Source: Streptomyces platensis
Lineage (GTDB): Bacteria; Actinomycetota; Actinomycetes; Streptomycetales; Streptomycetaceae
Reading direction: 5' to 3'
Length of the DNA: 64,000 bases
NCBI RefSeq assembly: GCF_008704855.1
Contig: NZ_CP023691.1
Coordinates: forward strand, 6,944,001 to 7,008,000
This document shows positions 20,663 to 50,535 of this stretch, in pieces. The notes beneath the pieces were generated by a model that saw only the letters and a list, made by a program, of their open reading frames with translations, had not been told where the DNA came from and did no database searches. A program made the translations under genes and the position numbers. Position 1 is the first letter of the stretch. The number at the start of each line of letters is the position of its first letter.

Positions 20663-20737
20663 GTGTTGTTGCCGGGGGTCTTAGCTGTTTCCAGCCAAGC
20701 AGAGCTGTCCAGCACCACCAGGCCACGGAGGCTTCCC

Positions 20738-21289
20738 GTGTCTTCGAGTTCACCACGCTCGACGGGGGACACCCCCGTGCCCCCGGCGGGGCTCACCCGA
20801 TTCAACGCCGCGGATGACGCCACGGCGCGTACCACGCTGCACGAGGTGTGCGCGAGCCGGGCATGGGGCGAGCGGATACTCGCCCGGCGCCCCTACGCCA
20901 CCACCGACGCCCTGTTCGCCGCGAACGACGCCGCCATGGCTGATCTGACCGCGGCGGATCTGGCCGAGGCGATGGCCGGGCACCCGCCCATCGGCCGGCC
21001 GAAGCCCGGCGACCCGACCTCACACCGCGAGCAGAGCGGTATGGCGGGCGCCTCCGACGCGCTCAAGGCGGAGCTGCTCGAACTCAACCTGGCCTACCAG
21101 GAGAAGTTCGGGCATGTCTTCCTGATCTGCGCCTCCGGCCGCACCGGAGAGCAGATGCGGGACGCGGTCCGGCACCGGATCGGCAACACGCCGGAACGGG
21201 AACGAGAGATCGTTCGTGCCGAACTCGGCAAGATCAACCGCATTCGTCTGACCCGTATCGCGGAGCACGCAGAAGGAGACGCAGCATGA
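20738..21289 (+). CDS. uraD: 2-oxo-4-hydroxy-4-carboxy-5-ureidoimidazoline (OHCU) decarboxylase
   Basis: A 183-residue UraD protein, which decarboxylates OHCU to S-allantoin as the last step from urate. Visible signatures are FNAADDATARTTLHEVCASR, the catalytic-histidine region AMAGHPPIGRPKPGD (~82-96), SHREQSGM, LLELNLAYQEKFGHVFLICA with SGRT, and NTPEREREIVRAELGKINRI. GTG at 20738 is preceded by CACGGAGG with seven bases spacing. The N-terminal 18 residues (SSSSPRSTGDTPVPPAG) are an extension without family match. First gene of a tight operon; its stop overlaps the uraH start by four bases. Confidence 0.94.
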   Translation: MSSSSPRSTGDTPVPPAGLTRFNAADDATARTTLHEVCASRAWGERILARRPYATTDALFAANDAAMADLTAADLAEAMAGHPPIGRPKPGDPTSHREQSGMAGASDALKAELLELNLAYQEKFGHVFLICASGRTGEQMRDAVRHRIGNTPEREREIVRAELGKINRIRLTRIAEHAEGDAA

Positions 21290-21738
21290 GCAGCGAGACG
21301 GCCGCACCGACGTCGGTGTCCACCCACATCCTGGACACCAGCGTGGGCCGCCCCGCGGAGGGCGTCGCCCTCACACTCTCGGTGCGCTCCGGCAGCGACG
21401 GCGCCTGGACCGCCCACGGCGCGTCCACCACCGACGCGGACGGACGCTGCAAGGACCTGCCGGACCTGCCGGCCGGCACCACCCATGTACGCCTCGACTT
21501 CGCCGTCGAGGAGTACTTCGTTTCGAACCAGCACCGCGCTTCAGACCAGCACCGCGCTTCAGACCAGCACCGCGCTTCAGACCAGCAAGCCGAGGAACAG
21601 CAGGACGCCCCCCGCGTAAGGGACAGCGGCGCGTTCTTCCCGGAGGTGGCAATCACCTTTGCCGTCCAGCCGGGCGAGCACTATCACGTACCGCTGCTGC
21701 TCAACCCGTTCGGCTACTCCGTATACCGAGGGAGCTAG
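21286..21738 (+). CDS. uraH: 5-hydroxyisourate hydrolase with a repeat-derived insertion
   Basis: A 150-residue transthyretin-like hydrolase that converts 5-hydroxyisourate to OHCU. The active-site His is in the N-terminal STHILDTSVGRPAEGVALTL, and the C-terminal GEHYHVPLLLNPFGYSVYRG plus final Ser is the family signature ending in YRGS. Normal family length is about 110-120; here roughly 30 extra residues follow EEYFVSN, including three perfect copies of QHRASD encoded by an 18-bp repeat (21529-21582), then a Gln/Glu-rich stretch. The insertion falls after the region of strand that precedes FFPEVAITF and probably loops out of the fold. The gene is coupled to uraD and lies 7 bases before uricase. 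Confidence 0.92.
   Translation: MSSETAAPTSVSTHILDTSVGRPAEGVALTLSVRSGSDGAWTAHGASTTDADGRCKDLPDLPAGTTHVRLDFAVEEYFVSNQHRASDQHRASDQHRASDQQAEEQQDAPRVRDSGAFFPEVAITFAVQPGEHYHVPLLLNPFGYSVYRGS
21529..21582 (+). repeat. Three perfect 18-bp tandem repeats inside uraH
   Basis: CAGCACCGCGCTTCAGAC occurs three times head to tail (21529-21546, 21547-21564, 21565-21582), followed by a partial CAGCA. It is in frame and adds a QHRASD hexapeptide per copy, so copy number can change without breaking the gene. Confidence 0.95.
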
Positions 21739-21745
21739 CACCGAC

Positions 21746-22717
21746 ATGACTGCCCATTCCCGCCCGGCCCGCGCTGCCGATTCCCGCCCGGCCCGCCCTG
21801 TGATGCTCGGCCAGAACCAGTACGGCAAAGCAGAAAACCGCGTCGTCAAGATCACCCGGGACGGCGACACCCACCACATCAAGGACCTGAACGTCTCCGT
21901 GTCGCTCTCCGGCGACCTGGAAGAGGTCCACCTCTCCGGCTCCAACGCCCACTGCCTGCCGACGGACACGACCAAGAACACCGTGTACGCCTTCGCCAAG
22001 GAGCACGGGATCGAGTCCGCCGAGCAGTTCGGCATCCACCTGGCCCGGCACTTCGTCACCAGCCAGGAGCCGATCCACCGGGCCCGCATCCGGATCGAGG
22101 AGTACGCCTGGGAGCGGATCGCCGGCTCCGACGCCAACTCCCGCTTCATCGGCGCCGACGAGGTCCGGCACTCCTTCGTCCGCAAGGGCCAGGAGACCCG
22201 GCTGACCGAGATCACCTACGACGGTGAGCAGTGGCAGGTCATCTCCGGGCTCAAGGACCTGGTGGTGATGAACTCCACCAACTCGGAGTTCTGGGGCTAC
22301 ATCAAGGACAAGTACACGACCCTCAAGGAGGCCTACGACCGCATCCTCGCCACCGAGGTGTCCGGCCGCTGGCGGTTCAACTGGACCGACGACGAGCAGC
22401 GGATGCCGAACTGGGAGCGTTCGTACGAGCAGGTCAGGAAGCACATGCTGGAGGCCTTCGCGGAGACCTACAGCCTCTCGCTCCAGCAGACCCTGTACCA
22501 AATGGGGTCGCGCGTCATCAATCACCGTTCCGAGATCGACGAGATCCGCTTCTCGCTCCCGAACAAGCACCACTTCCTGGTGGATCTGGAGCCGTTCGGG
22601 CTCAAGAACGACAATGAGGTCTACTACGCGGCGGACCGCCCGTACGGCCTGATCGAAGCCACTGTTCTGCGCGACGGTGTCGAGCCCAAGATCCCGGTGG
22701 ATCTGACGAACCTCTGA
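21746..22717 (+). CDS. uox: Factor-independent urate hydroxylase (uricase)
   Basis: A 323-residue cofactor-free uricase: urate + O2 + H2O to 5-hydroxyisourate + H2O2. The catalytic Lys is in GQNQYGKAENRVVKI (residues ~24-38) and the partner Thr in LPTDTTKNTVYAFAKEHGI (~72-90). The substrate Arg/Gln region is in the C-terminal third, and the SLPNKHHFLVDLEPFGLKND motif carries the conserved His. ATG 21746 gives an extra ~18-residue tail (RPARAADSRPARP) compared with other uricases; GTG/ATG at VMLGQNQ is an alternative. It is the last gene of the uraD-uraH-uox operon and is closed by a strong terminator. Product peroxide links it to the catalase at 16247-17719. Confidence 0.96.
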   Translation: MTAHSRPARAADSRPARPVMLGQNQYGKAENRVVKITRDGDTHHIKDLNVSVSLSGDLEEVHLSGSNAHCLPTDTTKNTVYAFAKEHGIESAEQFGIHLARHFVTSQEPIHRARIRIEEYAWERIAGSDANSRFIGADEVRHSFVRKGQETRLTEITYDGEQWQVISGLKDLVVMNSTNSEFWGYIKDKYTTLKEAYDRILATEVSGRWRFNWTDDEQRMPNWERSYEQVRKHMLEAFAETYSLSLQQTLYQMGSRVINHRSEIDEIRFSLPNKHHFLVDLEPFGLKNDNEVYYAADRPYGLIEATVLRDGVEPKIPVDLTNL

Positions 22718-40981: not shown

Positions 40982-41041
40982 CCAAGGCCAGGCCAAGGCT
41001 GCCCAAGGCCAGGCCAAGGCTGCCCAAGGCCAGGCCAAGGC
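40982..41041 (+). repeat. 21-bp tandem repeat downstream of the kinase
   Basis: A 21-bp unit beginning CCAAGGCCAGGCCAAGG is present 2.9 times (40982-41002, 41003-41023, 41024-41041), each unit itself built of CCAAGGCCAGG words. Degenerate copies (CAGCCAAGGCC, CAGCCAAGCCC) follow to about 41125. The whole non-coding gap to 41267 shows no gene. Confidence 0.85.
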
Positions 41042-50467: not shown

Positions 50468-50509
50468 GATGGACGTTGCCACCGTTCCGATGGACGTTGC
50501 CACCGTTCC
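50468..50509 (-). repeat. Perfect 21-bp tandem duplication upstream of GH84 gene
   Basis: Two identical adjacent copies (50468-50488, 50489-50509) of a 21-bp unit starting GATGGACGTTGCCACC. On the minus strand it lies 113-154 bases before the GH84 ATG, and on the other side 27 bases from the stop of the small membrane gene. Two helical turns apart, so it could be a double operator (as DasR/GlcNAc type sites would be) or just a slip duplication. Confidence 0.8.
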
Positions 50510-50535
50510 GCGCAGCGCCCGCCAAGGGGCGCCCC

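Follow-up and report, generated by a model that had tools for sequence, protein, structure and literature searches.

What does a small enzyme gain or lose when a perfect tandem repeat grows inside one of its loops, and is the repeat the part of that loop that selection keeps? The question is raised by the 5-hydroxyisourate hydrolase (HIUase) gene found in a 64,000-nucleotide stretch of Streptomyces platensis DNA (hereafter the window), in a genome consisting of one contig of 8.50 Mb. The reading frame is intact and lies in the order OHCU decarboxylase–HIUase–uricase (see the table), the true start codon of the first gene being probably downstream of position 20663. The HIUase product scores above the cut-offs of two family models, PF00576 (107.5 bits, E 7e-31; cut-off 25.3) and TIGR02962 (101.4 bits; curated cut-off 87.45). 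The Klebsiella enzyme, as described in PMC8272043, has a catalytic His, Arg and His and a C-terminal Tyr-Arg-Gly-Ser; read from position and context, H14, R54 and H134 of the window protein would correspond to Klebsiella His7, Arg41 and His92, and these three residues are, together with YRGS 147–150, invariant in an alignment of 56 sequences (A1). Like the bacterial HIUases (TIGR02962/PF00576; PDB 2h1x, 3qva, 2g2n), the protein fits the family models, has the same predicted fold (Z 13.7–14.2), ends in YRGS and is encoded in an operon with OHCU decarboxylase and uricase. Unlike the solved HIUases, it has a 38-residue loop between the helix and strand F that contains a tandem array and a codon-frozen segment, whereas the best three solved matches with alignments shown have about three residues there. 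A HIUase protein is present in 377 of the 392 Streptomyces genomes searched; in S. coelicolor, SCO6209–6211 are the same three genes, and their down-regulation under oxidative stress via HbpS-SenS-SenR is reported in PMC4991794.

Table. Features of the HIUase locus (window coordinates).
Feature	Position	Strand	Basis or remark
OHCU decarboxylase ORF	20663..21289	+	PF09349; overlaps HIUase start by 4 nt
HIUase (uraH/hpxT) CDS, 150 aa	21286..21738	+	PF00576, TIGR02962
Length-variable hydrophilic loop spacer (codons VSN...DQ)	21520..21585	+	comparison with relatives
Perfect 18-bp tandem array, 3.4 copies, 100%	21527..21587	+	TRF
Block E1 QAEEQQDAPRVRDSG, 45 nt, codons nearly frozen genus-wide	21586..21630	+	codon comparison
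E1 core CAGCAGGACGCCCCC-N7-GGGACAGC, 30 nt	21598..21627	+	pattern search
Block E2, last 54 nt of the gene, nucleotide-frozen	21685..21738	+	codon comparison
Uricase Shine-Dalgarno-like GAGGGAG within E2	21728..21734	+	can pair with CUCC just upstream
Uricase	21746..22717	+	TIGR03383, 365 bits; start 7 nt past the HIUase stop
Uricase N-terminal tail 24-bp in-frame tandem repeat	21750..21800	+	TRF; two copies

The initial annotation described three perfect in-frame 18-bp copies encoding QHRASD units, and positions 21529–21582 are indeed three identical copies of CAG CAC CGC GCT TCA GAC. This identity exceeds what shuffling or codon usage yields by chance: the run of period-18 matches is 43 nt long, the longest of any period from 9 to 30 in the window, versus 14 for the longest such run in 100 dinucleotide-preserving shuffles, and if codons were drawn for this peptide according to usage in nine window genes, all three units would agree at every codon with a probability of about 3.5e-4. 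The units use rare codons, GCT accounting for 15 of 345 Ala codons and TCA for 7 of 151 Ser codons (the array's own three counted in each). Note that the next longest runs in the window belong to two further perfect tandem repeats, each with a 21-bp unit, at 40982–41041 (run 39) and 50468–50510 (run 22).

The array is real and it is recent. Besides the perfection of its copies, the recent slippage initially proposed is borne out by the relatives: among 319 loci, the only two adjacent exact 18-bp units are the window's own, an absence to be read at the species level since the genome collections hold one genome per species, and the nearest genes of the same length are 95–96% identical to the window gene, loop excluded. 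In a tree of uricases (which omits the 12 of 254 loci without a recognised uricase), the neighbours L042 and L047 have no unit and L003, L005 and L006 have one QHRA-like unit, the node beside the window having a support of 0.48. An older shared array is possible because L002, slightly further out in the same part of the tree, carries a decayed 18-bp array (2.2 copies, 80%). Relatives show CAGCAC ... CAGCAA, with the two elements 15 nt apart in L013 and 27 nt apart in L005; in the window, the array ends with a partial copy (ACCAGCA) that extends over the first nucleotides of block E1 and continues into the conserved CAGCAAGCC. A single-copy ancestor with a short direct repeat CAGCA...CAGCA 18 nt apart would thus be seeded for in-frame duplication, and the conserved segment would fix the right end of the array. 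The array would then be an in-frame gain of about two 18-bp units, presumably via replication slippage.

The repeat sits in a part of the protein whose length is, as the initial annotation supposed, variable. In relatives, the loop consists of (i) a spacer, running from after the Tyr-Phe of the helix to the conserved segment, that varies in length and sequence between species, and (ii) the conserved QAExQQDAPxxRDSG. Loop length ranges from 3 to 65 residues in the 95 parsed genes of an even draw, with a median of 20 in 96 genes; these lengths leave out L209. L120, L238 and L242, which did not parse, were read by eye, and L171, which the pattern used on the relatives missed, was read separately. 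On its C-terminal side, the HIUase part measures 34 residues in all 98 genes considered. The wide range of loop lengths next to a C-terminal part of constant length favours tolerance of the loop, whose length between helix and strand F would be almost free, so that growth of the spacer would be tolerated. Note that L240 (G045), a Streptomyces gene without the usual conserved segment, has a 65-residue loop with a 27-bp repeat (PGTADTADA-like). Note also that the HIUase of L209 (G081) reads in two frames, with the break near E1 and E1 otherwise kept, which may be an assembly error.

Other arrays occupy the same site, with units EKF, KPES/KPEN, NTSE, KSERD, GRSES, DKH, AGQHSL and QHS. Of 234 distinct genes, 16 carry a TRF array scoring at least 45 in the loop, versus 4 with one in the N-terminal tail and 2 with one in the folded core (loop borders being approximate in six genes), i.e. 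9.9, 6.1 and 0.28 array-bearing genes per 10 kb, respectively; these numbers lean upward because 20 loci (L138–L157) were chosen for long matches. In the even draw (G001–G100, 99 genes), five genes have such an array in the loop, four in the N-terminal tail and none in the core. All loop arrays have TRF periods that are multiples of three, and 17 loop arrays (that of L037 added by eye) need 16 changes on the uricase tree (FastTree). The uricase N-terminal tail has arrays too (5 of the 52 distinct tails), as do the 480 nt preceding HIUase (33 of 232); by eye, many of the latter lie close to where the OHCU decarboxylase gene ends. Array birth thus seems to be a general feature of the operon's loose parts, the loop being one tolerant place among them. 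Examples near that gene end are L244, L112, L014 and L254, the largest being the 9.2 copies of a 24-bp unit in L244. As for the uricase-tail 24-bp repeat, the window has two copies and L003 three, with one in L005 and L006 by eye. TRF matches within uricase (59 of 222 distinct sequences) were considered as further expansions and discarded, as they are mostly one 24-bp pattern at a fixed place.

The location of the insertion between the helix and strand F, surmised as a loop position from the start, agrees with the AlphaFold2 model built from 56 aligned proteins. Most of the core has a pLDDT above 90 and the loop lies at about 46–64 in blocks of ten; the helix is predicted to extend to residue 93, through the first two repeat units, with falling confidence, and residues 99–106 and 108–114 are below 50. 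The model of the L146 protein (166 residues, long loop) shares these core elements, has a short helix and, here too, gives the loop low confidence. The best solved fold matches are HIUases and transthyretins (Z about 14; 14.2 for a HIUase). On these models the spacer is probably disordered. In the Klebsiella enzyme, protomers pair via their helices and the active sites lie at the β-sheet interface (PMC8272043), and in transthyretin the EF loop (residues 81–91) adjoins the strong dimer interface, the F87E variant being monomeric at 100 µM (PMC9293765). By analogy, the insertion would lie near a dimer contact and away from the active site.

One may ask, then, whether the repeat has been selected as a longer tether that alters tetramer stability. 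Mostly polar units do expand recurrently at one site, and the loop leads to a strand whose transthyretin counterpart would, if the two are equivalent, start near the dimer-interface Phe87 described in PMC9293765. The arrays share, however, no common unit or length, and their presence in the uricase tail and upstream of HIUase points to a general mutational process; we consider selection for a tether very improbable. Arrays in neighbouring protein tails, together with some 16 origins in the loop, make slippage tolerated in a loose spacer the simplest reading, and the array is probably near-neutral for the enzyme. Short tandem repeats born by slippage in disordered parts of bacterial proteins are a known category. 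The present array resembles them in its perfect in-frame copies, in the varied units and copy numbers of its counterparts and in its loose surroundings, and differs from them in that independent births recur at one homologous loop, which is bounded by a frozen coding block. The repeat itself is thus ordinary, a neat illustration of how in-frame slippage can add loose inserts to a small enzyme where a loop tolerates them, and can do so repeatedly within one family.

The frozen block next to the repeat would be the more important of the two. The initial annotation had taken the Gln-rich part that follows the repeat as part of the same insertion; this part is in fact the E1 peptide, QAExQQDAPxxRDSG, an older segment conserved in relatives. 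Its two Ala and its Pro are found in 210 of 210 sequences and its second Gln in 209 of 210. Of 101 Streptomyces genomes, 80 contain the pattern CAGCAGGACGCCCCC-N6-8-GGGACAGC, each of them a single time, and none contains its reversed control; a class-wide draw of 148 genomes finds it in all 11 Streptomyces and in none of the 137 others. In the sister genera of the Streptomycetaceae, the E1 segment is unchanged, slightly changed or absent, and it is absent from 10 of the 95 parsed genes of the even draw, plus L238 and L242 by eye. Judged by this distribution, E1 is dispensable, and the comparison of relatives indicates that it is older than the array and separate from the repeat expansion.

The conservation of E1 extends to its codons. 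In 187 genes, both Ala are GCC (187 of 187 each), Pro is CCC (187 of 187) and Ser is AGC (181 of 181). Rare codons are kept as well: the Gln preceding the motif is CAA in 165 of 170 cases, although CAA makes up 1.8% of background Gln codons, and the Val is GTA in 95 of 95 (4.9% in the background). We scored columns in which at least 90% of sequences have one residue and at least four codons are available, in the 187 of 190 genes with a uricase and a 67-residue core (157 of the 187 for OHCU decarboxylase). Codon homozygosity reaches at least 0.95 in 4 of 6 columns of E1, 10 of 18 of the C-terminal part and 2 of 29 of the HIUase N-terminal core, versus 2 of 108 in uricase and 0 of 47 in OHCU decarboxylase. 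With uricase columns matched by residue as the null, E1 gives P=2.5e-4, columns being treated as independent, as related sequences are throughout the tests. The synonymous rate is flat (pS 0.205 in the segment versus 0.216 and 0.199 in two core parts) and the mean pN/pS of the segment shows no constraint, which we attribute to the existence of two E1 haplotypes.

These haplotypes bear on whether QAExQQDAPxxRDSG is kept for the protein, as a docking motif for OHCU decarboxylase, uricase or a regulator, with the frozen codons as a by-product of translation. Consistent with docking, the amino acids of E1 are conserved too, and the model has low confidence in the segment, a frequent trait of disordered docking motifs. 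However, the freezing makes no distinction between rare and common codons, and it reaches E2. Moreover, residues 9–10 change together, from CGC-GTA to GCG-AAT and others, along with a linked synonymous AGG/CGG change, so that codons 9–11 read CGC..AGG in 122 of 212 genes and GCG..CGG in 86, a linkage that may reflect shared ancestry. Altogether, docking seems to us an unlikely reason for the conservation. Note that the two haplotypes look like the outcome of two single-base indels shifting the middle of E1 by one base.

The second frozen stretch, E2, includes the last 17 codons of HIUase (CACGTACCGCTGCTGCTCAACCCGTTCGGCTACTCCGTWTACCGAGGGAGC), which are nearly invariant: 0 of 100,000 draws of residue-matched uricase columns, treated as independent, equal its first 12 codons. 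The Shine-Dalgarno-like sequence of uricase accounts for the end of E2 but not for its first 36 nt. In 212 genes (L209 left out), fixation reaches at least 90% in 34 of the 48 columns of E1 and in 52 of the 54 of E2, and the codons between the two blocks vary; this variation speaks against the idea that the codons were frozen by a recent sweep affecting the whole gene. The two blocks tend to occur together. E1 is present in 216 of 275 distinct genes and absent from 59, a ratio that is no frequency since genes without E1 were partly sought on purpose, and codon diversity over the first 12 E2 codons is 0.033 with E1 and 0.331 in the 59 genes without it. When 59 divergent E1-bearing genes are compared with these 59, E2 diversity is 0.048 versus 0.331, at gene-core diversities of 0.379 and 0.426 versus 0.401 and 0.425. 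Within Streptomyces (28 genes each), the values are 0.066 with E1 and 0.200 without, the first core value being 0.439 in both sets; the 31 genes of other genera without E1 reach 0.417. E2 is therefore not dependent on E1 alone, being fairly conserved within the genus without it: its strands TCGGCT and CTGCTG are kept in 22 and 26, respectively, of the 28 Streptomyces genes that lack E1. The blocks also deviate together, with a mean of 1.2 E2 deviations in the 15 genes having at least three E1 deviations versus 0.14 in the other 197 (phylogeny uncorrected). As far as comparative data reach, E1 and E2 are conserved at the nucleotide level, presumably by selection, which the initial annotation could not have seen from a single sequence, and this conservation suggests a two-part nucleic-acid signal inside the coding sequence.

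We rank an RNA signal as its most likely form, a DNA site or protein docking being less so. Specifically, an RNA structure joining E1 and E2 in the HIUase–uricase mRNA may tune uricase translation or mRNA processing, a reading that we hold tentatively. It would comprise the helices AGCCGA/UCGGCU and CAGCAG/CUGCUG, the local hairpin CGC-CCC-N7-GGG-ACA-GCG inside E1 and a small CUCC/GGAG hairpin over the uricase Shine-Dalgarno. RNAalifold proposes all these helices, the first two between E1 and E2, and leaves the variable N4 and N7 stretches of E1 in loops. Leaving CUCC/GGAG aside, 98.9% of cells pair, versus 14–58% when the strands are slid, and deviations are half as frequent in helix columns as in other fixed ones (0.0041 versus 0.0083); alignment A2 comprises 35 of the 36 genes picked for divergence from the 212, L236 being left out. 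CUCC and GGAG are both kept in 214 of the 216 E1-bearing genes and in 33 of the 59 others, and E2 is most frozen where E1 is present. The E1–E2 pairs number 19.6, although genes with resampled codons already average 14.5. Other data weaken the case for such a structure. Paired positions hardly vary and no predicted pair is changed on both sides; folding is no better than in codon-resampled controls (mean z 0.03; 44 of 212 genes), the window fold has a z of −0.30 against shuffles and the E1–E2 duplex a mean z of −0.57 over 43 genes; the predicted helices leave out some of the frozen third positions (CCG, CTC, GCC); and no Rfam family reaches its gathering score over 21200–21800, the best hit (15.8 bits versus 49.8) being on the opposite strand.

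Strict conservation of sequence more than of structure would also suit a regulator that binds the DNA, or a promoter, either internal or antisense, and the response of the S. coelicolor operon to HbpS-SenS-SenR (PMC4991794) fits a regulator. The spacing between E1 and E2, however, goes from 56 to 77 nt in steps of three and not of helical turns, and this range disfavours a rigid DNA loop. A search for intrinsic terminators and for promoters of the sigma-70-like type, as distinct from other Streptomyces promoters, found neither in the region, and the sole predicted SenR site noted for the operon in PMC4991794 is upstream of SCO6209. A DNA site thus appears decidedly unlikely. Dual coding was considered as well: frames are open over E1–E2 in 87 of 212 genes for +1, 193 of 212 for +2 and 199 of 212 for one antisense frame, and the variation of the stretch between E1 and E2 disfavours it.

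Coming back to the RNA signal, E1 and E2 would exert a cis effect on the uricase gene that follows, the likeliest form being an RNA element surrounding the ribosome-binding site of that gene. Taken together, we find it likely that the array is a recent, near-neutral slippage gain in a loose, lineage-specific loop spacer and that E1 and E2 are selected for their nucleotides. A stronger proposal is that the loop carries one half of a bipartite cis RNA element, the other half being the 3' end of HIUase with the uricase ribosome-binding site; that this element arose within the Streptomycetaceae and controls uricase output; and that the loop exists mainly as its carrier, the spacer being slack that lets the enzyme tolerate it. 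We regard this full scenario as doubtful. E1 and E2, beside the repeat, are nevertheless a candidate cis-acting element in coding sequence and, if true, a regulatory signal would have entered an enzyme gene by an unusual route, as a protein insertion that is retained for its nucleotides. The regions of excess synonymous constraint with embedded RNA elements that FRESCo detects in viruses, as described in PMC4376164, are similar in that synonymous sites are frozen in a defined stretch of a coding gene; here, unlike in these viruses, the frozen sites form two separated blocks in a chromosomal bacterial operon. Titles and abstract beginnings in the open-licence literature yielded nothing on this loop, repeat or nucleotide conservation; PMC3765725, on Streptomyces non-coding RNAs, does not contain SCO6209–6211, uricase, urate or purine, and PMC4324301 does not contain 'loop', 'insertion' or 'Streptomyces'.

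The possibility that E1 is a mobile or repeated element was rejected, as it has one full match in its own genome (next best E 0.47) and its pattern occurs at most once per genome elsewhere. Phage records contain no match to the HIUase gene. Plasmid records contain four matches, of which two, from Streptomyces, cover all of E1–E2 and two, from Arthrobacter and Nonomuraea, cover only the part past E1. Note that the 27-kb plasmid p3 of S. angustmyceticus (NZ_CP104320.1, L318) carries uraD-uraH-pucL along with a nucleobase transporter and an 8-oxoguanine deaminase.
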